Below are positions 2,570 through 18,146 of a DNA stretch of 18,146 nt, piece by piece. The stretch is from Candidatus Schekmanbacteria bacterium (GTDB lineage: Bacteria > CSSED10-310 > JACPHN01). A program made the translations under genes and the position numbers. Position 1 is the stretch's first letter. Each line of letters starts with the position of its first letter. The notes below the pieces were generated by a model, which made no database searches, had not been told where the DNA came from, and saw only the letters and a list, made by a program, of their open reading frames with translations. Location: assembly GCA_016188575.1 (NCBI GenBank), contig JACPHN010000025.1, forward strand, positions 1-18,146. Reading direction: 5' to 3'.

Positions 2570-2905
2570 TTCAGTCTGACGACGCGCATCTCGTCGGATA
2601 AGATCAGCATCGCGATGATCTCGAGCGGAACGGGTCTGTCTGGAGGCACCAACGCGCCGATCCTGAACGTTGCGTTTTCTATCATTGGCGTCGGGACCAG
2701 CCCGTTGACCCTGGCGGCGTATTACAACTTCGACAAGCGTGGGAGAGACGTCAATCGCTTCAACCTGGCGGACGTCACGGCGCAATTGGGCCAGTTCGTG
2801 GCCAGTGCCGGGGGCGTGCCGGCGTTCGGGCCGGCGGGCGTCGCGGGTGTCGGTCTCGCGGCGAAGCTGTACATCCGAAGATCCGCGCGAAGGGGCCGCC
2901 GGTAG
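2570..2905 (+). pseudogene. Cohesin-protein 3' fragment with C-terminal anchor
   Basis: An open frame runs from an ATG at 2444, but only 2570-2905 resembles a real protein. It begins at FSLTTRISS, in the middle of a cohesin-like fold, and continues through GTSPLTLAAYYNFDKRGRD to the tail GGVPAFGPAGVAGVG with a hydrophobic stretch and IRRSARRGRR. The same 336 bp recurs nearly unchanged at 5737-6072, where the N-terminal half of the cohesin domain is present. The 2444-2569 part has no such match and looks like junk fused upstream. No signal peptide is visible. I read this as the decapitated 3' end left by duplication or recombination, not a working gene; the tail is of the VP-helix-Arg sorting type. 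Confidence 0.7.
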
Positions 2906-2922
2906 ACAGCGACGAGTTGCGG

Positions 2923-2985
2923 GTTTCGAGTTGCGATCCAGGCGTCCGACTCCAAACTCGACACTCCAAACGCGCAACTCGAAAC
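2923..2985 (+). terminator. Conserved stem-loop after the cohesin fragment, copy 1
   Basis: Arms GTTTCGAGTTGCG (2923-2935) and CGCAACTCGAAAC (2973-2985) are perfectly complementary over 13 bp. The 37-base loop contains two tandem ACTCCAAAC words. It starts 18 bases after the stop codon and recurs after the second cohesin gene at 6090-6152. It could be a terminator, an mRNA-stabilising hairpin or a dispersed palindromic repeat; there is no T-run. Confidence 0.45.
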
Positions 2986-3204
2986 TTGCCCATCCGGTAG
3001 CCGGCATGGCGGCGGCGCTCGCTCCTCCTGCAAATGGGTGCTGGTCGCCACTGTCGGCACCGGATGGCGCGAAGCTCGACAAGACCGCCTCAGATAGGGC
3101 GTCTCCGTACCATTCGACGGGGCGTTCTTCACCTTGGGTCGTGGCTGCCGACCAGCACAACGGGGCAGCACGGACGACCGTCACGCTTCCGAGGGCGATC
3201 CTGC

Positions 3205-3341
3205 GTCCAGCCGCCTTACGCACAAGCAACGAGGCGGTGAGGCGCCCCTTCCCATGGTCGGTGACTGTCCATTGTCCCGTGGCCACGGTCTCGCCTTCGT
3301 GCTAATCTCATGCGCGGAAGCTGCCGCCGGAGAACCGCCCT
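3205..3341 (+). repeat. Conserved upstream block of the ATPase/nuclease family, copy 1
   Basis: From 'gtccag' to the start codon this resembles 17526-17661, with long shared words such as 'acaagcaacgaggcggtgag' and 'cttcgtgctaatct', and 'ggagaaccgccc' just before the ATG. It probably holds the promoter and ribosome binding site. TAATCT near 3302 is a possible -10 box, but I find no well-spaced -35 box. The GGAGAA Shine-Dalgarno lies about 7-9 bases before the ATG. Confidence 0.6.
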
Positions 3342-4913
3342 ATGCGTCGTTTTTTCAATACAGCCGGGCCGTGTACGCCCGAAAAGCACTACATGCTGCC
3401 ACCAGAAGGTCGCCTGCCGCAGGTGCGCGATCTGATCGACCAGGAATCCTACTTCGTCGTCCACGCCCCGCGACAAAGCGGCAAGACCACCTGCTTCCGG
3501 GCGCTTGCCCGAGCCCTCACCACCGAGGGCCGCTACGCCGCGGTGCTCGCGAGTTGCGAAACAGCGCAACCTGCGGGCGGAGATGTGCATCTCGGCGTTC
3601 AAGCCATTCTGCGCAACATTAGCCTCAAGGCCGAGAGACTTCCTGCGTCCTGCCAGCCTCCTCCGGTCGAAGATTGCACGCAGGTGGAGCCCAATAGTCG
3701 CCTGCTGGCTTACCTTACGCGCTGGGCCGCGAAGGCGCCGCTGCCCGTGGTCTTGTTTCTCGACGAGATCGATGCCTTGCTCGATGAGACTCTGCTTTCA
3801 GTCCTGCGTCAGCTTCGGGACGGATACGGCGAGCGACCCGATCGCTTTCCCCAATCGATCGGTCTGATCGGCCTTCGGGATGTCCGGGACTACAAGGTGC
3901 GCATTCGGCCCGAAAGCGCGTCGCTGGGAACGTCATCGCCGTTCAATGTTCGGGTGGAGTCCCTGACGCTGTCCAACTTCACCATCAATGAGGTCGCGGC
4001 GCTGTACGGGCAGCATGCCACCGAGACGGGACAGCACTTTGAGCCCGAAGCGCTATCGTTGGCCTGGGAGCTCACGCGCGGCCAACCCTGGCTGGTCAAC
4101 GCGTTGGCGCGGCAGGTCGTGGAGAAGGACGTCCGCGACCGATCGGTGACCGTGACCCAGATCCACATCGAAGCCGCGAAGGATACCTTGATCCTGCGAC
4201 GGGATACCCACTTGGACTCCCTTGCGGACAAGCTACGCGACGAGCGGGTGCGCCGTGTCATCGAGCCGATCCTTGCGGGTGTTTCGCCCGACGCCGACCG
4301 CTATGACGACGATGCCGCCTACGTCGAGGATCTTGGTCTGATCGAGCGGCGCATGGGCGCACCGCCGCGTATCGCCAACCCCATTTACCACGAGGTCATC
4401 CCGCGCGCGCTCGCGTTCGCCGTGCAGGAGTCGCTGCCGCAACGCCCCGTCTGGTACGTGGGCGCGGACGGCACGTTGCTGACGGACAAGCTGCTCGACG
4501 AGTTTCAGGTCTTCTGGCTGCAACACGCCGAGCCGCTCCTGAGGCGGCAGCCCTATCCCGAGGCCGCACCACACCTGATTTTCTTCGGATTTCTTCAGCG
4601 CATCGTCAATGGCGGCGGGACCGTCGACCGGGAGTATGCCGTGGGCTCGGGGCGCATGGACCTCTGCGTCCGCTGGCGCCACGCCGGCGGCGAGCAGCGC
4701 GACGCGTTCGAGATCAAGGTCTGGCGCGACAAAAAGGCCGACCCGTTGGCGGAGGGGCTGGATCAGCTTACGGACTATTTGCTGCGGCTGGGGCTCGAGC
4801 ATGGGGCGCTTTTGCTATTCGATCGGCGCTCCAGCGCCCGACCAATCGAGGAGCGCTGTTCGTCGCAACAGCTCGAGCACCGGAGCAAGTCGATCCGCGT
4901 CTTGCGCCTGTAA
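3342..4913 (+). CDS. AAA-type ATPase with C-terminal PD-(D/E)xK nuclease-like domain
   Basis: A 523-residue protein. The N-terminus (RFFNTAGPCTPEKHYMLP...YFVVHAPRQSGKTT) is typical of a widespread, often multicopy family of AAA-like ATPases. Walker A is APRQSGKTT (~42-50) and Walker B is VVLFLDEIDAL (~136-146). An alpha-helical middle follows. The C-terminus has the nuclease signature GSGRMDL (~434-440), FEIKVW (~456-461), then QLTDYL, matching D...ExK...QxxxY of PDDEXK_9-like domains. The start is supported by GGAGAA just upstream and by the same start context in two other copies. Family function is not established; a mobile, defence-related or nucleic-acid-processing role is inference. This is the only complete copy here; its neighbours are cohesin fragments, and no partner gene is visible. 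Confidence 0.85.
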   Translation: MRRFFNTAGPCTPEKHYMLPPEGRLPQVRDLIDQESYFVVHAPRQSGKTTCFRALARALTTEGRYAAVLASCETAQPAGGDVHLGVQAILRNISLKAERLPASCQPPPVEDCTQVEPNSRLLAYLTRWAAKAPLPVVLFLDEIDALLDETLLSVLRQLRDGYGERPDRFPQSIGLIGLRDVRDYKVRIRPESASLGTSSPFNVRVESLTLSNFTINEVAALYGQHATETGQHFEPEALSLAWELTRGQPWLVNALARQVVEKDVRDRSVTVTQIHIEAAKDTLILRRDTHLDSLADKLRDERVRRVIEPILAGVSPDADRYDDDAAYVEDLGLIERRMGAPPRIANPIYHEVIPRALAFAVQESLPQRPVWYVGADGTLLTDKLLDEFQVFWLQHAEPLLRRQPYPEAAPHLIFFGFLQRIVNGGGTVDREYAVGSGRMDLCVRWRHAGGEQRDAFEIKVWRDKKADPLAEGLDQLTDYLLRLGLEHGALLLFDRRSSARPIEERCSSQQLEHRSKSIRVLRL

Positions 4914-5373
4914 TCATGACGGTCAGGCATCGCGAGACCGATCCCATTGGCCTCGCGGCATCGAATGGAGCACCCGTCACCAGGGTGCCCGGGAGCGTCG
5001 GGCATTTGGATCTCCCTCCTGCCGTCACCGGGACGACGGGCGCTTCACGTGCCTGAACGGCTGACCGTCCCTTCGAGCAGGCGAAGTGATGGCCGTCACA
5101 CTTCCCAGGGCGTTTCAGGCTCTTCGAGCGGTTCTCCCTGCTGGCGCGCCGTCGGGCCTCGTCCGGAAGAATGGCTTGCTGCCTCCGGCTGCGGTCCTTT
5201 GGGAAGAGGGTTCGCACGGCGCCCATGATGCCTTCGACGGTCAGCTCGTGGTGGTCGCGTACAGAGGCGGCGAAGCTCCCCCTCGACATCGACGCCAGTC
5301 GAATCTTCGATGGCCAACGCGCGGGCCTTCGTGCCAGGCTCCCGCGGCGAAGCCGTTGCCGGAGAACCGCCCT
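4914..5373. other. Intergenic region, no confident gene
   Basis: It holds a small stem GCACCC/GGGTGC (4970-4988) after the ATPase gene. It also carries a block with 'ggctcttcgagcggttc' (~5118-5134) that recurs at 6376-6392 beside the transposon insertion point. On the minus strand a frame open from 5421 contains a protein-like stretch (RDHHELTVEGIMGAVRTLF), but no family is recognised and the frame overlaps the antisense of the ATPase, so it is not called. The last ~15 bases are the ribosome-binding context shared by the ATPase copies. Confidence 0.5.
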
Positions 5374-5496
5374 ATGCGTCGTTTTTTCAATACTGCCGGG
5401 CCGTGTACGCCCGAAAAGCACTACATGCTGCCATCAGAAGGTCGCCTGCCGCAGATGCGCGAGCTGATCGATCACGAATCCTATTTCGTCGTCCAC
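5358..5496 (+). repeat. ATPase/nuclease start region, copy 2 (truncated)
   Basis: Matches 3326-3464 over 139 bp without indels, from the ribosome binding site through codon 41, then stops abruptly after GTCCAC. The following word TATTTCGTC (5497-5505) repeats the word at 5482-5490, so a short direct duplication marks the breakpoint. Confidence 0.85.
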
Positions 5497-6392: not shown

Positions 6393-6398
6393 GTTACC
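6393..6398. repeat. Target-site duplication, left copy (GTTACC)
   Basis: GTTACC abuts the left terminal TGTAGAAGGG and is repeated exactly at 17505-17510, next to the right terminal CCCTTCTACA. Confidence 0.85.
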
Positions 6399-6520
6399 TG
6401 TAGAAGGGTGATATCAGAAACCCGGATGGGTGATATCAGAGCGCGCCGTGCTTGATATCAGAGACCCGATTCTGCTTGATATCAGAGGCTCCTCTGGGGC
6501 CTAATGCGTGATATCAGAGC
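6399..6520 (+). repeat. Left terminal inverted repeat with five TGATATCAGA sites
   Basis: TGATATCAGA occurs at 6409-6418, 6431-6440, 6453-6462, 6477-6486 and 6509-6518, giving steps of 22, 22, 24 and 32 bases. The core TGATATCA is itself a palindrome. The outer 66 bp are identical to the right end in reverse complement. By analogy with Tn7/Tn5053 these are the likely transposase-binding sites. Confidence 0.92.
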
Positions 6521-7008
6521 TACACCACCGGGGAGGCATCCGTCCTCGACTCGCGAGGGGTGTCGGTCTGGAATACGGGATTTAGCCTTTCCCCAGCAGG
6601 GGTGAGATGTTGGCGGGAGTCCACCGGTCGCCCGGACGTCGAGCCGCGCGAGCGTCGCCGCGGTAATCTCACTGCCCAACGGATTTTGCAGCTCCCTCAC
6701 GTTGGCCTCGATGTCGGCGAGATCCGCGGCGATCGCGTCCGGAGCCCGGTTCACTTGCTCGTCGACATCCGCCGATAAGTGGCGAAAAGGCATGGTTCGA
6801 AGCGAGCTCGAAGTGGACTTCGGCAATAGACTCGATGGTCGAATTCGTCAACGAGGTCACCGGACTGTCCTCTTGAAGGGGGGTCAATAACGCGTTTGAG
6901 GCGTTTCGTTGACACCCTGGGCAGTCCATCGGGCTTCGTCAACCCCTCGGTCCCCAATCTGGTCGAATCGGCAAAGTGCCACACTCCGGACCGACACCAG
7001 CGGGTAGC
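6521..7008. other. Left sub-terminal region without a confident gene
   Basis: Several minus-strand frames are open here (6482-6826, 6669-6929, 6751-6984) but overlap in different phases. One includes a helical-looking stretch (DAIAADLADIEANVRELQNP) that might be a decayed gene remnant. None shows a recognisable domain or a convincing ribosome binding site. The right edge contains a short tRNA D-arm-like word at 7000-7023. Confidence 0.4.
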
Positions 7009-7746
7009 TCAGTGGATCGAGCCATGGTGCATTTTGAGTACGGACTCGGCCAGCATTCGAACTGCCGGTTCCTCAGCTTCATTCCCTACTGTCTGAATCA
7101 CGCGGCACAGCTTGTCGTCCAGGCAGTCCCCCGACAACAAGAGCCCGGCAAGCTGCATCGTAGGTTCTCGAGACTCGAGCATAATGTCTGCAAGCACGCG
7201 TTTTCGATCGGAATCGTCCTTGCACCCCAGCCACATGGTCTGGTAGGCGTACGCGACAGCAAGTGGATGAGGCCTGCTGGTGCTACCCAGGAACAAAGTT
7301 GAGATCCGGTCCTGACTCTTTGGCCACTGTCTCTCGGTCTCCTGTGGCCGATAAACTTCATCCCAAAGTGGTAAGCGAAGAAACTCAGCAAATATTGGAC
7401 TGTTATGTATACGGTCGTCCTCAAGAATAATTGTCCGGAACTGGGTGTGCGATCTTCTTGCCCACAGAAAAACAAGCATCTCCAATCTGTCCCATTCAGT
7501 CAGGCGACGACTTTCGAAGAACACCTCATGAAGGTCTTTGAGCCATGTATCCGAGTCTTGGGAATATAGAACACATAACAGATACTCCTTCGCCTTGCTG
7601 TCTGGCATTGAGGTATATGCTCGCGATAGATTCGTGAAACCAGCCATGGCATCCATATCTCTGGCAATATTTCCAACAAGAAAATAATCCTTTGCAACCT
7701 TACAGATAATATTCTCAAGCAAATTCTTGATAGTCATGTTATTCAT
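7009..7746 (-). CDS. Hypothetical protein, candidate immunity protein of the Rhs tip
   Basis: A 245-residue protein with an ATG start, only 6 bases after the stop of the upstream Rhs-tip frame on the same strand, so translational coupling is likely. No known family is recognised. It looks soluble and alpha-helical with no signal peptide or membrane segment. The C-terminal third (RKRVLADIMLESREPTMQLAGL... DDKLCRVIQTVGNEAEEPAVRML) has the rhythm of HEAT-like helical repeats. Base composition and codons are clearly more AT-rich than the transposon core genes, as is usual for toxin tips and their immunity partners. Role as immunity protein rests on position and composition only. The last residues (GSIH) are encoded by a tRNA D-arm-like word, hinting at an altered 3' end. 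Confidence 0.6.
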   Translation of the reverse strand: MNNMTIKNLLENIICKVAKDYFLVGNIARDMDAMAGFTNLSRAYTSMPDSKAKEYLLCVLYSQDSDTWLKDLHEVFFESRRLTEWDRLEMLVFLWARRSHTQFRTIILEDDRIHNSPIFAEFLRLPLWDEVYRPQETERQWPKSQDRISTLFLGSTSRPHPLAVAYAYQTMWLGCKDDSDRKRVLADIMLESREPTMQLAGLLLSGDCLDDKLCRVIQTVGNEAEEPAVRMLAESVLKMHHGSIH

Positions 7747-7752
7747 AGTTGT

Positions 7753-8214
7753 TTAGTTGAATGGTGGCGGCCAACATGGGTTCATCATAGGTCGGCCGCT
7801 GCAGATATCTACATTCAATCGACATAAGAAACCACATGTTAGGCACGATTCTGCACAGTGACGACTAATTGGAGGTGGAAATACCTTGCAGCATCCAATG
7901 CACATACCCATTCTAAGTATACATGGATTCAACGAATCCGAACACGAATCGTCATCTTGTATCTGTGGTACAATTCTGTTCAATTCCACTGGAAAGCCTG
8001 TTATTTCACACTCTGACGGTACTACGGCAGTTATCGCCAACCTGCCAGTGAAAAACCTTTGCCGCAACTCGATACCCAACCGTGGGGCGTAAGTGCCCCA
8101 AGCTGCTACGGTCAGGCCTGCAACGTCATCACGGATCGTGCTTCGATACCATGCCGGTGGTACGCTACCACTCGACTCGACCAGGCGCCCATACGTATCG
8201 ACCTCCGCCGACGC
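7753..8214 (-). pseudogene. Displaced Rhs C-terminal tip, Cys-rich, out of frame with the core
   Basis: The frame begins with a second copy of the core end (ASAEVDTYGRLVE) and runs to WPPPFN before a stop. DDVAGL...TYAPRLGIELRQRF resembles a diverged version of the Rhs motif in which D.ETGL is followed by YDPRLGRF. After that comes a variable tip with about 14 cysteines (for example CIGCC, CLTCGFLC, MNPCW) and DDDSCSDS; no toxin fold is recognised. A 73-bp insertion/duplication upstream puts this frame +1 to the core, so it is not translated as part of the Rhs protein. A TTG at 8079 could start a 108-residue product, without a convincing ribosome binding site. It is AT-rich like its downstream neighbour. 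Confidence 0.65.
8177..8214. repeat. 38-bp direct repeat at the Rhs core/tip junction, tip-side copy
   Basis: Identical to 8250-8287; the two copies are separated by 35 bp (8215-8249). In the coding direction it encodes ASAEVDTYGRLVE at the end of the Rhs core. The repeat period is 73 bp, which is not a multiple of 3. Confidence 0.95.
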
Positions 8215-8249
8215 TAGCCAGGAGGGCTAAGATGCTGGATTGTCAAAAA

Positions 8250-8287
8250 TCGACCAGGCGCCCATACGTATCGACCTCCGCCGACGC
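8250..8287. repeat. 38-bp direct repeat at the Rhs core/tip junction, core-side copy
   Basis: Exact partner of 8177-8214. The spacer contains a stop for the core frame (TGA, 8243-8245), a small hairpin TAGCC/GGCTA (8215-8229) and the word TTTTTGACAATCC on the minus strand, which looks like a recombination scar rather than Rhs code. Confidence 0.95.
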
Positions 8288-8383
8288 CGCTACGTCGCCG
8301 TTCGAGTCCGTGAACCGCGTTGCCACGCCATCTAGACCGGCATGGTAGATCGTGCTCCCGCCAGATGAGTAGCTCTCCAAGAT

Positions 8384-9778
8384 CTATCCAGAATCGTCGG
8401 TGATGAGCAGCGACGCTAGCTGCCCATCCGCATCGAAGCTCGCCAGTGGTACATCCGAAATGCCTCGATACACGACTCGGACTCCCTCCGCGCCGTCGAT
8501 GCTGACCAAACGGTCAAGCGCATCGTAGCGATAGCTCTGCGCCACACCCGGACCCGTAGCCCCGGTCAGCCGCCCGAAGGCCTCCCATGTGTAGTGCGTG
8601 GTTTGGCTCGTGCTGCCCTCGATGCGCTCCGTCATGCGGTTCGCGCCGTCGAACGTGTAGTCGTAGCTATCGTCGGACTCGAGCCGACTCGCCACATCGT
8701 ACGCATACGTCGCCGACAGATGCGACGAGAGTCGGTTCCCGAAGAGGTCATAGGAGTAGCTTTCGTCCGGAAGTGGGCTCGCCGACGGGTGATCGACCAC
8801 CGTTGTCCGACCATCGGCGTCGTGCGAGTAGATATGCGATCCATCAAGCTCGCCTACCTGCGTCACGCGGCCCGACTTGTCATAGCCGTAATCGAAGCGC
8901 GAGATCGTTCCCGATGGGCCCGTGTGCACGATCGACGTCACCCGACCCGCGGCGTCGTAGGCGTAATCGGTTCGTGTCCCATTCGGGTGCGTGATCTTCG
9001 TCACCCGACCCACGGCATTTCGCGTGAGGTAGATCGTCTTGCCATCCGGCCTCTGAATCGAGGTGACCTCGCCGCGGCTGTTGCGCCCATAGCCCATTGC
9101 TCCGACGCCTACCAATTCGATTGTGTCTATCAGGCCGTCTTTGTCGTAGCCGTACTTCACATCTGTCAGCGGTTGCGCGCCACCGGATTTCGTCGTCCGT
9201 GACTCGAGGAGCCACCCGGACGCATTCCAGGTCAGCTCCGTCGTGGTATCCGCCGTTTCTGCACGGGCCAGGTTACCGAAGACGTCGTAGGAGAATGCGG
9301 CAAAGGTCCCATCCGACCCATCCTTTCGCGTCAGACGGCCCTCCGCATCGTAGGTTTCGATGACAGTTTCCCCATTCGCTCGGTAGGTCGTCCGCTGCCG
9401 GTTTGCGGAATCATACTGGTAGCGCTCGGTCTGACCTGGCGGATCCGTGCGGCTCACGACGCGATCACGACCGTCGTAGCTCATTCGCCATTCGCTTCCA
9501 AGCGGGTCGACGACTACCGAAGGCTGCGTCGCGGAACCTCCCGCGCTTACGCAGCTCGTGCATCCCGGTGCTCCGTCTCCGTACGCGAATCCGACTGTGG
9601 CGCCAGCCGGCGAGGTCCGTGACGACAGGCGATTGAGATCGTCGTAGGCAAAGCTCGTCATTCGGCCCTCGGCATCGACCATTGCCGTCGCCCGACCGGC
9701 GGCATCCCGCGCATAGGAGAGCGTGTTCCCGTTCGGATCGGACCGCGAGAAGAGGTTTCCCGCCGCGTCGAAACTCAT
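8384..9778 (-). pseudogene. Rhs/YD-repeat protein, C-terminal core segment
   Basis: About 464 residues of uninterrupted YD repeats (YDAAGRVTSIVHTG, YDKSGRVTQVGELDG, YDLFGNRLSSHLSA, YDALDRLVSIDGA). It is in the same reading frame as the upstream segment 9782-13504 and is separated from it only by one TGA and a Ser codon. It ends at a TAG (8384-8386). Past that stop the same frame continues with ILESYSSGGSTIYHAGLDG and SAEVDTYGRLV down to 8243, which is the normal end of an Rhs core. One gene has therefore been cut by two nonsense codons, either of which could be a single C-to-T change (CGA to TGA, CAG to TAG). Rhs cores form a beta-cage enclosing a C-terminal toxin. Internal initiation at 9778 is possible but unsupported. 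Confidence 0.85.
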
Positions 9779-9781
9779 GCT

Positions 9782-12700
9782 TCAGACGTTTCCGAGCGGA
9801 TCTGTGAGGCTCGTCACCTGGCCGCGAGCGTCACGGCCGAACGCATAGGTCGCGCTCCCCGGAAGCGTTATCGAGGTCGCGTTGCGCCTCGTGTCGTAGC
9901 CCAGCGTCGTGCGACGCGACAGCGGATCCCTGATTTCGGTGAGGTTACCCGTTTCATCATACGTATAGCTCGTGGTCGCCGTGATGGTCTCGTCGACCTG
10001 TTTGATCATCTGGCCCGAGCGATCGCGGTGATAGGTGATGCGACTGCCGTCCGCTCGCACGCGCGCCTTGGCGTTGCCGCGTTCGTCCCGCTCCCACGCC
10101 GTCTGGGCACCATCAGGCTCGGCTCTCCCCGTCTCCTGGCCAGCGCGGTTGATGGCGTAGCTCCAGACGCCACCCGCGCCATCAGTGATTGTGCTGGTCG
10201 CCTCTACCAAGGTCGCGGCGATCGCCGGATTGCCCCCGGTGCCGACTCCGTCCGTCAGAGAATCGGCGAGCCCTACTGCAACCGTAGGTCGATAGCTACG
10301 CACCTCGCCGTCGGCGCGCAACACCTGACGAGCTCGTCCTGTGACCGGATCATAGAAATACTTCGTGACAAACCCACGCGTGTCCGTCCGCGCCACCAGG
10401 CGATGATCCTGATCGTAGGCAAGGGTCGTGGTCGATCCGCCCGGAAGCACGACCGCCACGAGGTCGCCGGCGCCGTCCACCACGAAGCGGGTCACGCGGC
10501 CGCTCGGGTCGGCGATCCTCGCGAGCTTGCCCGAGCCGTCGTACGCCAGACTCGTTACCTGCCCCACTGGGTCGGTAATCGATTCGAGCCGCTCCGAAGC
10601 ATCGTACCCGTAGCTCGTCTGGTTCCCGTTGGGGTCAGTCCGAGCGCTGAGCCTTCCCGCGCCATCGAAGTCCAGCCGACTGCCGTCGCGGCGCGCTTCT
10701 GTAAACGAGCCGTCGCCATTCTTGACGAGCTTTTCGAAGAAGCGCGCCGACTCGTACTCGAGCGACGGTGAGAGGCGGAAAAGATAGAGCCCGAGCCCCA
10801 TTCGCATCGCGGCGATTTGTGATCCGTCCGGCAATACGGCAAGTGCCACGGGATCGGAGATTCCGTCCGGTGGATGCGCTCGTTGGCGTTTCATTCCGTC
10901 CTCACCCACCCGCACGATCTCGTCGGTGGCGATATCTGAGATCACGAGCCCGCCAGATGGGTCTGCTGCCAGCGCTCCGAGGTTGGTCAGGCCGGCGAGC
11001 CAGATCTCCCGGCCATCCAGCAGGCCTGGCTCAAGACGATAGATCGCGCCGTCCGCCTGCACGTAGATCCTCCCGTCCGTTCCCGCGACGACGAAGCCCG
11101 TGTCTGCAAAGCCGCTGGCGACGAGCGTTACCACGCCCGCCGTGCCGTCCGCGTTGCGATCGATCGCGTACAGCTTTCCTCCGGTCGTGGTCGAAACGTA
11201 GAGGCGCCCATCCGCGCCGACCACGGCGTCACCGGTGAAACGCCACGCCATCGCGCTCGTGTCCCAGACGGTAAAGGGAAACCTCGTGCCGGCTGCAAGC
11301 CCCGCCGTGTTGCGGATCCGCACCTCGGCTGGCTGACGCGCCACCACACCGCCAGTGTCGAGAGCGAGTGACATCACGAAGCCGGGATAGGCGTCGGAAA
11401 GCGGGCCAGGCATGTGGTCGATCTCCCGGATGGGCGTGAGCCGCACGCTCGCATCCGACGTCGCCCATGCCGGAGGAAATACGGCCTGGACATCGCCAGC
11501 AGAGTCGGTGACGGTGCCCCCGACGCTACCGCTTACCGTGACTGCGTCCGCTATCGGCGTGAGGTAGATCGTCGCGACGGCGGTTTCACTCTGAGCACCG
11601 GCGTAAATCTCCCGGTACGAAGGTGTGAATCCGCCCTGCATAATCGTCAGGCGGTAGCTCTCGCCGCCTGGAACAGGAAAGCGGAAGATGCCGGCGTAGT
11701 CGGTCACCGCACTGGTGCTGAACCCCGCGACGCTGACGGTGACGCCCGACATCGGCAGCTCCGTGACGGTGCTGCGGACCTCGCCCAGAATCACCGCGCT
11801 CTCGGCAGTCAGGGCCGGGGTTCCCGAAACCGTGAAGGAGAGTGAGTTTGACTCGGCACCCGCGACTTCGACCGCGACGGGTCCGCTCACCGCGCCCATG
11901 GGGACTTCGATATCAACTTCCGAGGAGGTCGCACTGAGCACGTTTGCCCTCACTCCGGCGAAGCTCACCCGATTCGCAGCCGGCGTGGCGCCAAGATCAT
12001 GTCCGAAGAGTGTGACTTGGGTACCTGGGGCCCCAGTCGCCGGGGAAATGTCGTCGAGAACGGGTTGCACGACTTCCTGGCGCAGCCGGATCGGCAGCGC
12101 ATTCGAGACGCGACCTCCGACCCGAACGGACACGTTGCCCTCCTGAATGCCGGAAGGAACCTCCACGAGCACCGACGAGGGGCTCGCCTCGTCGGGCGCC
12201 ACAGTGGCTCCCGAAAAAAGCACATCAGTCTCTGCCGGCGTCGCCCCCCAAAAAGCGCCGCTGAGAACCAGCAAGGCCCCGGGGGCCACCTCGCGTGGCG
12301 CCAGTGCCAGGAGAACGGGAGTGGCCGTGCTTCCCGGAACCTCGAAGGCAACGGCATTCGAGGTGACCGTGTCTACGATAACCGTGAGTGGCCCGCTAGT
12401 CGCACCGGTGGGTACCGTGACCTCGAGGTCGGTCGCCGTGGCGGACACCGCGGTCGCCATGGCACCAGCAAAGGACACCGAGCTTCCCCCAGGTGCCGTC
12501 GCAAATCCGTCACCCTGGATGTGGATGAGCTCCCCAGGACTCCCACTTGTGGGGAGCACGGCATTGATCCGTGGGGCGAGCGCCGCTAGCCCCTGCGCCT
12601 GCTGCGCGATGCGCAAAGCATCCGCGACGTCGACGATGCCGTCAGCGGTGACGTCAGCCCAGTCCATGCGCGGCGGAGCCTCGCCCTGACCGGTTAGCCA

Positions 12701-13504
12701 GGCGAGCAACGCCAGAGCGTCCGCCCGCGTTACTTCACCATCGTCATCCACGTCACCATGGGTCGCAAACGCTGCCATAGCCGCGATCACGATGCCGCCG
12801 CCGAGGATGGTTGCGAGCACGGCAGGCCGTGCCAGCAATGACCGCACGCGACGGCGATAGCGGGCGAGGATCGCCGCCATGAGCAGCGCCAGAAGGGTAA
12901 CGAGCATCACCGACAGCGCCGGAATTTCCTGAACCCGTCCCACCTTCACGACTGCAGGAACCACCGTAACAGCGATATCTGCGCCATCCGTGCCCACGAG
13001 TCGAGCAGCGGCAGCCGAGACCGTTCCCTGCGATCCGACTGAACCAACGACCAGGAAGGAGAGCGTCGCAATCTGTTGTGCGCCCGTGGGACCGTGCAGG
13101 CGCTCGTCCTGAAAGGTAGCAAAGCGTACCTCGCTCGCACCGAAACCAACAGTGGGCGCGGAAAAAGCCGAATCGAATGGGGGCGAGCCAGCAGAGACGC
13201 GATCGAGTCGCAGCACCTCGGGATCAAAAGTGACCCTGAGCTCTATGGCACCGATTGGCGTGGTAGACTCGAGCACAATCGGGATCTCGACGGAGCCGAG
13301 CTGCGCGGCGGATTCGGACGGAGCCGCCACGCGCAGGGTCGCCGCCTCGGCGTGTGGTCTCGCGGCGCCGGCTACGAACGCAATCCATAAGAGCACAGTA
13401 GGCAGCCAAAGACGACGTCGATGATCTGCTCGCCCGTGCTCGTGCACTCCTGCGCGCCACCGAGGTCCCGTCGAAATCGCCCGCACAGGAGTTTCACGAG
13501 TCAT
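9782..13504 (-). CDS. Rhs-like cargo protein N-terminal part: cohesin, dockerin, three TIG domains, YD repeats
   Basis: 1,240 residues up to a premature TGA. Order: Arg-rich n-region and hydrophobic signal/anchor ~30-53; cohesin-like domain ~54-190; IPALSVMLV-helix-ARYRRR, a sorting-tail look-alike, ~194-216; second hydrophobic segment ~228-248; dockerin ~249-308 (GDVDDDGEVTRADA, ADVTADGIVDVADA); three IPT/TIG domains starting ~311, ~393 and ~478; carboxypeptidase-regulatory-like beta domain ~567-640; beta-propeller-like segment (GADGRLYVSTTTGGKLYAIDR, LGALAADPSGG) ~740-900; YD repeats ~935-1240 (FDGAGRLSARTDPNGN onwards). Known family role: Rhs/YD proteins deliver variable C-terminal toxins. 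The anchor and dockerin suggest surface display. It starts 62 bp after the ATPase frame on the same strand, so it may be read through from the transposition operon. It is continuous in frame with 8384-9778. Confidence 0.88.
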   Translation of the reverse strand: MTRETPVRAISTGPRWRAGVHEHGRADHRRRLWLPTVLLWIAFVAGAARPHAEAATLRVAAPSESAAQLGSVEIPIVLESTTPIGAIELRVTFDPEVLRLDRVSAGSPPFDSAFSAPTVGFGASEVRFATFQDERLHGPTGAQQIATLSFLVVGSVGSQGTVSAAAARLVGTDGADIAVTVVPAVVKVGRVQEIPALSVMLVTLLALLMAAILARYRRRVRSLLARPAVLATILGGGIVIAAMAAFATHGDVDDDGEVTRADALALLAWLTGQGEAPPRMDWADVTADGIVDVADALRIAQQAQGLAALAPRINAVLPTSGSPGELIHIQGDGFATAPGGSSVSFAGAMATAVSATATDLEVTVPTGATSGPLTVIVDTVTSNAVAFEVPGSTATPVLLALAPREVAPGALLVLSGAFWGATPAETDVLFSGATVAPDEASPSSVLVEVPSGIQEGNVSVRVGGRVSNALPIRLRQEVVQPVLDDISPATGAPGTQVTLFGHDLGATPAANRVSFAGVRANVLSATSSEVDIEVPMGAVSGPVAVEVAGAESNSLSFTVSGTPALTAESAVILGEVRSTVTELPMSGVTVSVAGFSTSAVTDYAGIFRFPVPGGESYRLTIMQGGFTPSYREIYAGAQSETAVATIYLTPIADAVTVSGSVGGTVTDSAGDVQAVFPPAWATSDASVRLTPIREIDHMPGPLSDAYPGFVMSLALDTGGVVARQPAEVRIRNTAGLAAGTRFPFTVWDTSAMAWRFTGDAVVGADGRLYVSTTTGGKLYAIDRNADGTAGVVTLVASGFADTGFVVAGTDGRIYVQADGAIYRLEPGLLDGREIWLAGLTNLGALAADPSGGLVISDIATDEIVRVGEDGMKRQRAHPPDGISDPVALAVLPDGSQIAAMRMGLGLYLFRLSPSLEYESARFFEKLVKNGDGSFTEARRDGSRLDFDGAGRLSARTDPNGNQTSYGYDASERLESITDPVGQVTSLAYDGSGKLARIADPSGRVTRFVVDGAGDLVAVVLPGGSTTTLAYDQDHRLVARTDTRGFVTKYFYDPVTGRARQVLRADGEVRSYRPTVAVGLADSLTDGVGTGGNPAIAATLVEATSTITDGAGGVWSYAINRAGQETGRAEPDGAQTAWERDERGNAKARVRADGSRITYHRDRSGQMIKQVDETITATTSYTYDETGNLTEIRDPLSRRTTLGYDTRRNATSITLPGSATYAFGRDARGQVTSLTDPLGNV

Positions 13505-13565
13505 GCCCCATTGGCTCCTCGGAGCTCGATCACTAGCCTACTCATCGCATAGCTCCGCCGTTTCG

Positions 13566-14575
13566 TCAGCGCGCCCGAGATGGTCGCTCAGGTCTTCTGC
13601 TCTCTGTAGCTAGCGGCTGAGCGGGCGCACTTTCCTCGTCCTCCGGAATAGATTGGGCCCACGACGACGTTGTTATATATTCGGCTCCCAGCGCCGCAGC
13701 CGCAAATGGCGACTGGCACAAACGCAACATGGCCTTGGCGACCTCCAAGACGCGAAGGCGCGCCTGAGAACGGCCTCCATAGGTCCCCCGCAAGATTTTC
13801 TCGACAAGCTCGGGGCGTGCACCGACTTCATTCGCTACATCGCGGCTCTTGAAACCGATCCGGTCGAGCTCTCCAAGCAAGTTCCCAGGATCGCGGCCCG
13901 CACCTCGCCGCACGCTCTCCGCCGTAATCACCTCTTCGCCCATCAACTCTCCTTGCTCGAGGATGGGCCACAGGCAGTTCTTGATTTCTCCTGGCGTTTC
14001 CCGATGACGCTTGAGCTCTTGCCGAGCTTCCTGGCTCAAGATCTGCGGATCACTGCCACATTGTACGATGAGCCAGTCGACATACTCGTCGAAGGCGCGG
14101 CCGAGAGAGTCTACCCAGATCTCGCGCACTCGCCACTGGACTGTCTCCAATGCGCCTGGGCTTGATCGATAATGAAGACGGGATGCCGCTTGCCGCTGGC
14201 GCACTGACGGAGAAAACCCTCAATTTCCGCAGACCGCGAGGCGACCTTCTTGCGGTCGACCAGCTCGAAGTCCCGAGCAAGCTCGGAAAGCGCAATATTG
14301 AAGTGATAACTCCCTTTTTCCGGCACCTTGCTGAGCGAGATCAGGTATGGGCTGCCTCGTCTGGATTGTTCCAAGAGCTCGTTGACAAGATAGGTCTTGC
14401 CCACACCTGTCAAGCCGAACACGGCGACGAGCCCTACCCGTTCCTGGAGAAGCCGGGCAAGATCTCGTCGGGCAGCCGCCATTTGCGCTGTCTGATGGAT
14501 CCCGGTTGTCTCCGGCAGCCTCTGGAAATGATAGAAGTCAGCCGTTCTGTCGAGCATCGCCAGACGCTCTATCAA
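13566..14575 (-). pseudogene. TnsC/TniB/ExeA-type transposition ATPase, frameshifted
   Basis: Two overlapping frames make one protein of about 335 residues. The first (14575 to ~14160) has FYHFQRLPETTGIHQTAQMA, Walker A GLTGVGKT (~54-61) and Walker B VFIIDQAQ. The second (to 13566) resumes immediately as ALETVQWRVREIWVDSLGRAFDEY and carries a helical C-terminus. Reading through needs one extra base near 14153-14162, right after Walker B, so a single-base deletion, a recoding site or a sequencing error splits the gene. Its ATG lies 38 bases inside the 3' end of the transposase gene, so the two are translationally coupled. Known role: such ATPases choose target DNA and activate a TnsB/TniA/MuA transposase. 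Without repair this copy would lack the C-terminal half. Confidence 0.82.
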
Positions 14576-16253
14576 GCATCTCCTTGACTTGCGCCATCAC
14601 CTCGTCGCGCCGAAGCGTTCGGGCCAGGAGTGCGTCAATCTCCTGACGCTGCTCACGCGACAGACTTCCCAGAGAGATGCGGAATTCTTCAATGATCGCG
14701 CCCTTGGCGAGATGAGCGTTCACGAAGTACAAAGCGCCAGTCGCACTTTCCGGCCGCATCACCGCGCCGCTTACGATAAACCGCCGACGCTGATCCGCCT
14801 CGGATCGCCGATCAATGAACAAAGACTCTTTGGGGAGCTCGATCCGTTTAGACAGCTCGATGACCTTCTCGCGTCCGCCATCGACCACACGCTTGCGGCC
14901 ATGGAAGTCGCCCAGGGGTCGCTCCAGCGGGGTCGGCTTGAGCGGACCGTAAATCGCACCGTCAGCGGTACGGACGTAGAGACCGCTGTCGAAGAGTCCT
15001 TTCCAGACCTCCACCTTCTTTCCCTTGAGGTCGCAATGCTTCCCGGCGAGCTCCTCATTCAGCGCATATGACTCACCATCGTAGCGAACGCGGTACTCGT
15101 TGGAAACCAGCCGACTTTCCGGCTCTCGCGCCAAGTCGATAAACTCTTCCCAGGAACAGAGGCACCGAATGTTTTCCAGGTTCTGATACCAGGTGTCGAT
15201 GCGCTTCTCGTCCCACAGCGGATGTTTCGAGTAGGCGACATTGAGGACGTGAGCGGCGAGATATTGGCTGGCCTCGCGCAAGGTAGAAGGAAGGTGGAAT
15301 CGGAACAGCGACTCGAAGCTGCTGTGGAACGTTCTGAAGCTACGCTCTATCTTTCCCTTGCTGCGCGCCGCCGTGCGAACCTTGGCGCGAGAAGGCGGTT
15401 CGTGCAGTTGGATCTTCACCCCCAGCCGCTTCATTACCCGGAGAAAAACAGCGGACTTGGCGATAGGTCCGTTGTCCATGTAGAGGGCCTTCGGGACGCC
15501 CTGGAAAGGGAAGCTCGGGTCGGCCTTGGGCGCCATGGCATGAAAGAGAAAACGCAGACCCGTTTCGACGTCCTCGCCATGACCGAGGTTATACTCCATG
15601 AATTCGACTCGCGAGAAGTCATCAATGACGCAGTACAGCATCAACCGTGGTCGTCTCTGCCCCGCATCTCGCCAGCTCCTGTCCTCGGCGAGGTGGTCAT
15701 TGTCGTCGAGGTAGTAGGCGTCGGAAACCGAGATGTCGAACTGCCAGAACTCATTGGGCGCGGTGGCGCCGAAACGGACCGCGGAAGATTCCCACTGGGC
15801 CGGCTTATTCAGCGCCAGCTTGCGCAGCCAGTGGTCGACACTTGCGCGTTTTAGCCGACCGGCGGGTAGTTGCACCCATTCGCCCGTTTGCCGATCGCGG
15901 AATCCCCGTTCGCCGCGGACAATTGCGTCTGCGGTCGAAAGATGCGCGCCATCGCGATTTTTGCTTGCATACTTGATCGCCGCGACGATGTTGATCCAAC
16001 GCAGGAACTCTTCATGATCCTGGTGATGAGGGCGCTCGGCGTCACAGCGCTTTCTTCGGGTTGGCTCGGGATTGCGGCGGGCAAGGTATCGCCACACCGT
16101 GACCGGCTGACAACCGTAGCTCTCGGCGAGCTGCCGAACCAGCGCCGCGCGCTGGGCATCCCGTGGGGAAAGCATCTCGAGCTGTTTTCCGAGCCGCTCA
16201 ATGGCTTCGTCGGGGATCTTGGACAAGGAGAGCGCCCTCAGGATAAAATACAT
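14538..16253 (-). CDS. DDE transposase of the TnsB/TniA/Mu type
   Basis: 571 residues from the ATG at 16253, chosen because GGAG lies just upstream; a GTG at 16325 would add 24 residues without family-like sequence. The N-terminus has a helix-turn-helix region (LAESYGCQPVTVWRYLARR). The rve/RNase H-like core shows the acid triad D173 (EFWQFDIS), D260 (LYMDNGP) and E303 (KGKIERSF). A Mu-C-like beta-barrel follows (~400-450, SNEYRVRYDGESYALNEEL), then a C-terminal helical tail that would contact the ATPase. Known chemistry: end cleavage and strand transfer at TGT ends; without TnsA such transposases usually give cointegrates. It overlaps the ATPase gene at its 3' end and is divergent from the recombinase gene, with the promoter region between them. 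Confidence 0.9.
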   Translation of the reverse strand: MYFILRALSLSKIPDEAIERLGKQLEMLSPRDAQRAALVRQLAESYGCQPVTVWRYLARRNPEPTRRKRCDAERPHHQDHEEFLRWINIVAAIKYASKNRDGAHLSTADAIVRGERGFRDRQTGEWVQLPAGRLKRASVDHWLRKLALNKPAQWESSAVRFGATAPNEFWQFDISVSDAYYLDDNDHLAEDRSWRDAGQRRPRLMLYCVIDDFSRVEFMEYNLGHGEDVETGLRFLFHAMAPKADPSFPFQGVPKALYMDNGPIAKSAVFLRVMKRLGVKIQLHEPPSRAKVRTAARSKGKIERSFRTFHSSFESLFRFHLPSTLREASQYLAAHVLNVAYSKHPLWDEKRIDTWYQNLENIRCLCSWEEFIDLAREPESRLVSNEYRVRYDGESYALNEELAGKHCDLKGKKVEVWKGLFDSGLYVRTADGAIYGPLKPTPLERPLGDFHGRKRVVDGGREKVIELSKRIELPKESLFIDRRSEADQRRRFIVSGAVMRPESATGALYFVNAHLAKGAIIEEFRISLGSLSREQRQEIDALLARTLRRDEVMAQVKEMLDRASGDARQNG

Positions 16254-16381
16254 TAGCTCCACGGTAGCACCGCGCAACTGTCCGTTCAACCCTCGCCGAT
16301 CGCGCACGAAAACACGCGTCAGCACGCGCTGCAGCGGTCAGGACGCGAAGCTCTCCGGGACCCCATTCGACCAGGTAAGCC
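16254..16381. promoter_or_regulatory. Divergent intergenic region between transposase and recombinase
   Basis: 128 bp separate the two oppositely transcribed starts; it shrinks to 56 bp if the GTG at 16325 is used. Both genes must start here. I see no TGATATCA site and no convincing sigma-70 box pair. Confidence 0.35.
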
Positions 16382-17341
16382 ATGAAACACTCACGATCTA
16401 ACGTCGAACACACGAGGAACCCGCAGATGACGAACCCGGCTGCCACGATGACCGAGTGCAACCGCTTTGAAAGCTGGCTCGCCGAGCTCGCCCAGGCCGG
16501 GCGTACGGAACGAACGCTCCAGGAGTACAAAGGCGACTGGCTCGTTTTCAGCCAGTGGTTCCGAGGCATCAACGAGGAGCTTTTTGAGATCGCGGCGCTA
16601 ACCGGACGCGACTTGCGCGACTACGTTGACCACGAGCTCCGGGCGAAACGGGCAGTCAACACGGTGAACCGGCGGCTCGGGACAATGAAGCGGTACGCGG
16701 CGTACGCCGTCGACAACGGGTGGCTCGGTCCCGATGTCTATCGCAATCTGCGGCGAGTGCCCGCGATTCGCAGCCAACAGGTAGCACCGGAAGGTGTGGA
16801 AGGCGCCTCTGTGCGCAAGCTGCTGCGCAAGGTGGAGCGCGTGGGGGATCGCCGCGATGTTGCGCTGCTGTCGCTCCTGGCGCATACGGGACTGCGGGTA
16901 GGGGAGCTCGTCGAGCTCAAGATGGCTGATCTCGCGTTCTCGGAGGGCAGAGGTACGATCATCGTACACGCCGCCTACGCTAAAGGAAGCAAGGAGCGAC
17001 GGGTGCCAATTCCCGCGGAGGTGCGAGAGCTGATTCACGAGTATCTGGCAACGCGGGAGGGACTGGGTGATGACGCCGCGCTCTTTGTGGGCGAGCGCGG
17101 TCCACTCACCGCCAGCGGCGTCCACTGGCTCGTAGGCAAGTACGCGGCCATGGTGGGTCTGAAGCTAAGTCCGCACCAGCTCAGGCACGCGTTCGCGTAC
17201 GCGTTTCTGCGAAGTAGCAACAACAACTTGGTCGCGCTCGCTGATGTGCTCGGGCACGAAAGCCTGACGACGACGCGGCGGTACACGCGCACCAGACCCC
17301 AGGATCTGGCAGAGGAGATCGAAAAGGTGCAATTCGCATAG
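16382..17341 (+). CDS. Tyrosine recombinase (XerC/D-like), putative cointegrate resolvase
   Basis: 319 residues from the ATG at 16382. The ATG at 16427 (MTNPAATMTE) has a better-placed GAGGA and may be the true start. The N-terminal SAM-like core-binding domain (~20-110) is followed by the catalytic domain with R172 (HTGLRVGEL), a lysine in AYAKGSKERRVPI, H265 and R268 (HQLRH), H292 (LGHES) and Tyr 301 (TTTRRYTR), so all expected active-site residues are present. Known role: site-specific strand exchange through a Tyr-DNA intermediate. Inference: since the element has no TnsA and no serine resolvase, this enzyme may resolve cointegrates, as TnpI does in Tn4430. It lies between the transposase and the right terminal repeat. 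Helping integration is the alternative role. Confidence 0.92.
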   Translation: MKHSRSNVEHTRNPQMTNPAATMTECNRFESWLAELAQAGRTERTLQEYKGDWLVFSQWFRGINEELFEIAALTGRDLRDYVDHELRAKRAVNTVNRRLGTMKRYAAYAVDNGWLGPDVYRNLRRVPAIRSQQVAPEGVEGASVRKLLRKVERVGDRRDVALLSLLAHTGLRVGELVELKMADLAFSEGRGTIIVHAAYAKGSKERRVPIPAEVRELIHEYLATREGLGDDAALFVGERGPLTASGVHWLVGKYAAMVGLKLSPHQLRHAFAYAFLRSSNNNLVALADVLGHESLTTTRRYTRTRPQDLAEEIEKVQFA

Positions 17342-17382
17342 TCGGGCCGAGCGTCCTGGCCAGTGGCGCCGTTATCCGCCGG

Positions 17383-17504
17383 GCTCGGATATCACGCATT
17401 TGGCCCCAGAAGGACCTCTGATATCAAGCAGAATCGGATCTCTGATATCAAGCACGGCGCGCTCTGATATCACCCATCCGGGTTTCTGATATCACCCTTC
17501 TACA
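17383..17504 (-). repeat. Right terminal inverted repeat with five TGATATCAGA sites
   Basis: On the plus strand TCTGATATCA appears at 17417-17426, 17441-17450, 17463-17472 and 17485-17494. A one-mismatch version (TCGGATATCA) is at 17385-17394. The spacing mirrors the left end exactly and there are no indels over 122 bp. The innermost site starts 44 bases after the recombinase stop codon. Confidence 0.92.
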
Positions 17505-17510
17505 GTTACC
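17505..17510. repeat. Target-site duplication, right copy (GTTACC)
   Basis: Exact repeat of 6393-6398, directly outside the right terminus. Confidence 0.85.
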
Positions 17511-17525
17511 GTCGGGCGATCATGG

Positions 17526-17661
17526 GTCCAGCGGCCTTTCCCACAAGCAACGAGGCGGTGAGGCGCCCCTCCACATGAGCAGTGTCTGCCGGCGTCCCGT
17601 CGCCATGGTCTCGCCCTTCGTGCTAATCTGACATGCGGAGGCTGTTTCCGGAGAACCGCCC
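17526..17661 (+). repeat. Conserved upstream block of the ATPase/nuclease family, copy 3
   Basis: Counterpart of 3205-3341, sharing 'acaagcaacgaggcggtgag', 'cttcgtgctaatct' and 'ggagaaccgccc'. The transposon sits just outside this block, so the likely promoter of the ATPase copy is intact. Confidence 0.6.
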
Positions 17662-18146
17662 ATGGCACGTTTTTTCAATACCGCCGGGCCGTGTGAGCCG
17701 CGCGACCATTTTATGCTGCCGGCCGAGAGTCGTCTGCCGTCGATCCGGGAGCTTATCGACCAAAAGCTCTATTTCGTCGTCCACGCCCCGCGTCAAAGCG
17801 GCAAGACCACCTGCTTCCGGGCGCTTGCGCGAGCCCTCGCCGCCGAGGGCCGCCACGCCGCGGTGCTGGCGAGTTGCGAAACAGCGCAACCCGCCGGCGG
17901 AGATGTGCATCTCGGCGTTCAGGCCATTCTGCGCAACATTAGCCTGATGGCCGAGAGACTCCCTGCCTCCTTGCAACCTCCTCCGGTCGAAGATTGCTCG
18001 CAGGTGGAGGCCAGTAGTCGTCTGCTGGTCTATCTGACACGCTGGTCCGCGAAGTCGCCGCTGCCCGTCGTCTTGTTCCTTGACGAGATCGACGCCTTGC
18101 TCGACGAAACCTTGCTTTCCGTCTTGCGCCAGCTCCGCGCCGGATA
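17662..18146 (+). CDS. AAA ATPase/PD-(D/E)xK family protein, copy 3, cut by the window end
   Basis: The ATG at 17662 follows GGAGAA at the same distance as in the other copies. The frame is open to the window end (161 complete codons). It reads MARFFNTAGPCEPRDHFMLP, then Walker A APRQSGKTT and Walker B VVLFLDEIDAL. Nucleotide identity to 3342-3826 is high, with mostly silent or conservative changes (for example RLPSIRELIDQKLYF against RLPQVRDLIDQESYF), so this is a recent paralogue under coding constraint. The expected C-terminal nuclease domain lies outside the window. It stands downstream of the interrupted cohesin spacer, repeating the cohesin-spacer-ATPase order seen at 2570-4913. Confidence 0.9.
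   Translation, partial: MARFFNTAGPCEPRDHFMLPAESRLPSIRELIDQKLYFVVHAPRQSGKTTCFRALARALAAEGRHAAVLASCETAQPAGGDVHLGVQAILRNISLMAERLPASLQPPPVEDCSQVEASSRLLVYLTRWSAKSPLPVVLFLDEIDALLDETLLSVLRQLRAG

Follow-up and report, generated by a model that had tools for sequence, protein, structure and literature searches.

An 11.1-kb bacterial transposon akin to ISAzs36-type elements, with a tyrosine recombinase gene in the resolvase position

The organization of several described transposons is useful for reading the locus reported here. Tn552 (p480/p271/binL) follows a plan of DDE transposase, ATPase and resolvase, and its end sites differ from those of our element. V-K CAST TnsB and IS21 IstA are DDE transposases with AAA+ partners; V-K CAST also involves TniQ/CRISPR, neither of which is present in our element, and IS21 is not known to carry a resolvase. 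Transposons of the Tn7/Tn5053 family duplicate 5 bp of their target and have multiple transposase-binding sites at each end, a feature found here too as five putative sites per end. Head-to-tail site arrays have been described for the ends of Tn7, Tn5053 and Tn552, and in Tn7-like elements without TnsA the presence of a serine or tyrosine resolvase implies a cointegrate pathway (PMC8649781). IS481 elements mostly give 6-bp duplications (PMC10045372), and TnRErm46 targets NCTAGN (PMC6794481).

The element and its ends

The window, that is, the whole 18,146-bp stretch of Candidatus Schekmanbacteria DNA that was analyzed, contains an 11,106-bp element (6399-17504) with GTTACC on both sides (Table 1). 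At fixed ends, such a match has a chance probability of 1/4096. Both ends read TGTAGAAGGG inwards, the left one from position 6399 and the right one as the reverse complement of the sequence ...CCCTTCTACA ending at 17504. Over 122 bp the ends are mirrored with an identity of about 95%, and their outer 66 bp are identical. The end alignment thus bears out the initial annotation, which had described a transposon with two ends, a perfect outer 66 bp and a duplicated GTTACC. It had also called the transposon complete, which holds for the two ends, but the ATPase gene is broken and a cargo gene has decayed.

Table 1. Coordinates of features in and around the element (window positions)
Feature	Coordinates	Strand	Remarks
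Tandem paralog of the joined flanks, uninterrupted and lying outside the element	2732..3808	+	Empty site by homology; 36-bp difference at the junction
Left target-site duplication, GTTACC	6393..6398	.	Obeys the NNTANN family rule
Left end, 122 bp	6399..6520	+	TGTA terminus; five sites
Left site 1, TGATATCAGA	6409..6418	+	
Left site 2, TGATATCAGA	6431..6440	+	
Left site 3, TGATATCAGA	6453..6462	+	
Left site 4, TGATATCAGA	6477..6486	+	
Left site 5, TGATATCAGA	6509..6518	+	
Cargo ORF, 245 aa	7009..7746	-	
Cargo Rhs/YD-repeat protein with cohesin, dockerin and TIG domains	8384..13504	-	In-frame TGA at 9782-9784, TAG at 8384-8386
AAA ATPase gene, broken	13566..14575	-	ORFs 14111-14575 and 13566-14204, in different frames
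DDE transposase, 595 aa	14538..16325	-	D197/D284/E327 conserved
Tyrosine recombinase, XerC/D-like, 319 aa	16382..17341	+	R, K, HxxR, H and Y motifs present
Right end, 122 bp	17383..17504	-	Mirrors the left end
Right site 5, TGATATCCGA	17385..17394	-	One mismatch to TGATATCAGA
Right site 4, TGATATCAGA	17417..17426	-	Exact
Right site 3, TGATATCAGA	17441..17450	-	Exact
Right site 2, TGATATCAGA	17463..17472	-	Exact
Right site 1, TGATATCAGA	17485..17494	-	Exact
Right target-site duplication, GTTACC	17505..17510	.	

The flanks provide separate evidence of insertion. When they were joined with one GTTACC kept, they aligned with an uninterrupted paralog upstream in the window at 85% identity for the left flank and 84% for the right one. 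Apart from a 36-bp gap where the flanks meet and some small gaps elsewhere, the alignment is continuous, and this continuity identifies the element as an insertion. The paralog thus supplies the uninterrupted counterpart that had been sought, but the exact single GTTACC expected of an empty site is absent from it. A look for further copies of the end, also suggested at the outset, was successful: A lone degenerate end lies on another contig of the same genome (C159:16053-16149, corresponding to L004:10054-10150; 94% identity over 97 bp). No partner for it was found in the genome. Because it is preceded by CGTAGG, which is consistent with the NNTANN pattern of the family described below, this solo end is probably a second, decayed insertion. 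In seven other genomes of the phylum we found no paired end motif, nor did we find close relatives in these seven, in the 60 and 386 genomes chosen by kinship, or in genome and viral collections scanned with single-protein patterns. A tRNA-targeted integrative element was considered in view of the tyrosine recombinase and rejected, there being no sign of one and no tRNA or RNA family in the window. We conclude that the 11.1-kb stretch is a real bacterial transposon.

Each end carries five sites, with steps of 22-22-24-32 on the left and on the right. The spacing and mirroring agree with the initial description of five matching copies per end, except for the fifth right-hand site. The remaining nine of the ten sites are exact copies of the ten-base TGATATCAGA. 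Allowing up to two mismatches, we counted 26 matches to it, compared with 7.3 +/- 2.8 in shuffled sequences, and none of 200 shuffles reached 26. The 8-bp core TGATATCA is palindromic, from which it had been proposed that each site could bind a symmetric dimer, unlike the sites of Tn7 and Tn5053. The core palindrome is real, but the dyad ends there: The next three positions on either side are complementary in 0 of 10 sites, and the conserved flanking bases, G at -3 and GA at +8/+9 in all ten sites, are asymmetric. The dyad count therefore lends no support to a symmetric dimer at each site. Moreover, the sites within each end all face the same way, forming a directional head-to-tail array as at the ends of Tn7, Tn5053 and Tn552, so the supposed contrast with Tn7 and Tn5053 falls away. 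As read from their sequences, the sites are directional and asymmetric, which fits ordinary directional recognition.

Transposition genes and the family of relatives

The transposase gene is intact. Among the 724 plasmid records that it matched in tblastn, the best listed show 35-39% identity over 92-96% of its length, and a family profile gave 294 matching stretches in bacterial genomes. Phage matches were of Mu type with identities of at most 25%, and a scan of viral contigs with the family alignment returned two loci only. The window transposase is 35-38% identical to 11 aligned plasmid members, and in the tree it forms a deep branch outside all others, a very long one (4.0) whose exact place is unsure.

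Directly downstream of the transposase, in the position usual for the family, lies the AAA ATPase gene. It is broken: Compared with eight relatives, about 40 codons are missing between Walker B and a later conserved stretch, in addition to a frame change. We dropped the idea that the frameshift is due to a sequencing error alone, because these conserved codons are missing as well. Since its own ATPase gene is broken, this copy is probably now unable to move by itself; we infer that the ATPase was active in this element in the past.

The plasmid relatives are annotated as IS481, ISAzs36 or DDE transposase, and their neighbors are a recombinase and an ATPase of the AAA or ExeA family. In nearly all relatives an AAA ATPase and a resolvase adjoin the transposase, and in some the ATPase gene overlaps it. 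Complete relatives start with TGTA, apart from L074, which starts with TGTT; most of them have mirrored ends of 140-200 bp, and in nearly all of them the first two sites are 22 bp apart. The target duplications, wherever readable, are always 6 bp long, and all 19 distinct ones, GTTACC included, read NNTANN. Duplications were searched for at lengths of 4-9 bp and irrespective of TA, so the TA rule was not built into the result. Where a complete element lacks a matching duplication, TA is in most cases still found at positions 3-4 of both flanks.

The ISAzs36-type plasmid elements (L015, L018, L019 and L020) have, like our element, a transposase alignable over its full length with the DDE residues and an adjacent ATPase. 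They also share with it the TGTA termini, long mirrored ends, 22-bp first spacing and 6-bp NNTANN duplication. Our element differs in its divergent tyrosine recombinase, which replaces the serine one, its greater length of 11.1 kb, its Rhs cargo and its broken ATPase gene. Because the relatives share the termini, the long mirrored ends and the first spacing, the mirrored end layout is the rule in the ISAzs36-type family and not peculiar to this element. It had been stated that the end is of no recognized family, which remains correct for the end sequence itself, but the layout, termini, NNTANN pattern and gene set match IS481/ISAzs36-like elements. The 11.1-kb element is a distant, deep-branching member of this unnamed "IS481/ISAzs36-like" family, which is widespread though poorly described. 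In the open-licence literature we found no description of the family as ATPase-plus-resolvase transposons.

Two further observations concern the relatives. In some elements (L016, L029, L033, L040, L042, L046, L050, L061, L072, L084, L096 and L104), the two flanks differ, yet both carry a TA-centred 6-mer; this may reflect recombination between copies, or else intramolecular replicative transposition. In addition, longer dyads were read by eye in the sites of some relatives, e.g. CTCACATTGCGTGAG in L018 (L018:4409-4583, L015:7653-7834), and partial palindromes may recur in the end sites of the ISAzs36-type family.

The tyrosine recombinase and the proposed mechanism

We consider it likely that the locus as a whole is explained by a deep-branching "IS481/ISAzs36-like" transposon with a TnsB/IstA-type mechanism, present as a copy that has lost its ATPase. 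Judging from homology, the transposase would bind the head-to-tail sites, five per end, and pair the ends, and a TnsC/IstB-like ATPase would have delivered it to a TA-centred target. Joining of the 3' ends with a 6-bp stagger would then give rise to the GTTACC duplication. We propose a cointegrate as the product because no gene for a TnsA-like second-strand cutter was seen. Finally, the tyrosine recombinase would resolve the cointegrate in place of the usual serine resolvase. Resolution is the least certain of these steps, since a simple paired-arm scan around the tyrosine recombinase gene found no convincing crossover site. The transposition pathway could also differ from the cointegrate route, because copy-paste movement has been ascribed to IS481 elements (PMC6794481).

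The tyrosine recombinase gene lies beside the right end and is divergent from the transposase. Its product is at most 35% identical to other tyrosine recombinases in the same genome. We tallied the resolvases at 95 usable loci: A serine resolvase was nearby at 90, a tyrosine recombinase only at one (L074, from Nostocales LEGE 11386), and none was found at four. A serine resolvase beside the transposase is thus common without being universal, and it is absent from our element. We regard the tyrosine recombinase as the candidate cointegrate resolvase, and its presence in place of a serine resolvase is mainly what makes this element unusual.

L074, a complete element that fills its whole contig, resembles ours in having mirrored ends and, in the same resolvase slot and with the same orientation, a divergent tyrosine recombinase. 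The serine-to-tyrosine swaps in the two elements nevertheless look independent, because L074 is nested in a clade of serine-resolvase cyanobacterial elements in the tree while the window protein stands outside all others, and because the two recombinases are only 25% identical.

That distance from the sole other tyrosine case, together with the outcome of the crossover-site scan, also bears on a different reading of the gene. The tyrosine recombinase might be passenger cargo, or might act in dimer resolution or integration, rather than being the element's resolvase. We find this doubtful: The gene occupies the place between end and transposase where 90 of the 95 relatives have a serine resolvase, the serine gene is missing, and L074 presents the same replacement.

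Placement among named families, and accompanying genes

Profile and fold comparisons address the position of the transposase relative to named systems. The reference transposase nearest to the family profile is Tn552 p480 (E ~1e-8; reference sequence taken from pN315), followed by a TniA-like protein (E 4e-5). The similarity to p480 is remote, with 26% identity over 154 residues, and Tn552 carries a serine resolvase whereas our element has a tyrosine recombinase. The fold predicted for the transposase (mean pLDDT 72, pTM 0.59) found its best PDB matches in V-K CAST TnsB and IS21 IstA (Z 18-20), with 14-21% identity in the structural alignments and a large whole-length rmsd. By this predicted fold, the transposase is closest to TnsB and IstA.

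An IS481-family element with acquired cargo, as in TnRErm46, that moves without an ATPase partner seems improbable to us. Among NCBIfam profiles, IS481 fits the tested family members best, ours included; TGT ends and 6-bp duplications are common ground, and the NCTAGN target of TnRErm46 is likewise TA-centred (PMC6794481), although GTTACC, itself 6 bp and TA-centred, does not contain CTAG. However, the window transposase scores only 56.6 bits against a cut-off of 224, and a sample IS481 protein was not matched by the family profile. The adjoining and sometimes overlapping ATPase genes of the relatives and their multi-site ends of 122-200 bp also stand against this reading, IS481 elements and TnRErm46 having short ends and no described resolvase or ATPase dedicated to transposition. 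A Tn7/Tn5053(Tn402)-family transposon proper is less probable still, for despite the head-to-tail arrays, TGT ends, pairing of DDE transposase with AAA ATPase, predicted fold closest to TnsB and the serine or tyrosine resolvases known in that group (PMC8649781), TniQ, TnsD and TnsA were not found among the main ORFs, the family profile did not significantly match Tn7 TnsB (E 1.5) or Tn402 TniA (E 48), and the duplication is 6 bp instead of 5 bp. The element belongs to the ISAzs36-type group, not to Tn7, Tn402 or IS481 proper.

The ISAzs36-type group may extend to a wider proposal, for and against which we see about equal chances: It would be a separate major ATPase-dependent DDE lineage, placed between IS481 on one side and Tn7/IS21 on the other, whose ends follow a fixed code (TGTA, 22-bp first spacing and mirrored ends), which targets NNTANN without TniQ, and whose cointegrate resolvase is exchangeable, unrelated tyrosine recombinases having taken its place in at least two independent events. 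The core explanation of the locus is ordinary; of value are the family-wide signature and the recombinase exchange. Hundreds of plasmids from Salmonella, Klebsiella, Pseudomonas and other hosts carry ISAzs36-type elements, but the IS481 label, given by the transposase, hides the ATPase, the resolvase and the long ends. The TGTA/22-bp/NNTANN signature lets the boundaries and the cargo of such elements be called. The serine-to-tyrosine swap, for its part, opens a way to test whether resolution is a plug-in step that does not depend on the machinery of transposition.

As for cargo, the 245-aa ORF had no family match. The Rhs gene is decayed and interrupted by in-frame stops. TGA recoding at the stop at 9782 was rejected: TGA also terminates the transposase gene, TAG serves as the second stop in the Rhs gene, and the 3' part of the latter contains a local duplication. 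Rhs/YD-repeat genes are numerous in this genome, with 49 matching stretches; the paralogs on contigs C31 and C62 have long open frames, unlike the decayed transposon copy, and C193 is also among the matches.

Outside the element, the flanks belong to a set of paralogous units, both tandem and dispersed, which occur in the window at 2732-3808, 5326-5496 and 17505-18146 and on contigs C241, C223, C66 and C19 of the same genome. The array units comprise an AAA-type ATPase gene (at 3342-4913 and from 17662 onward) as well as cohesin-domain genes, whose conserved flanks show 70-84% DNA identity.
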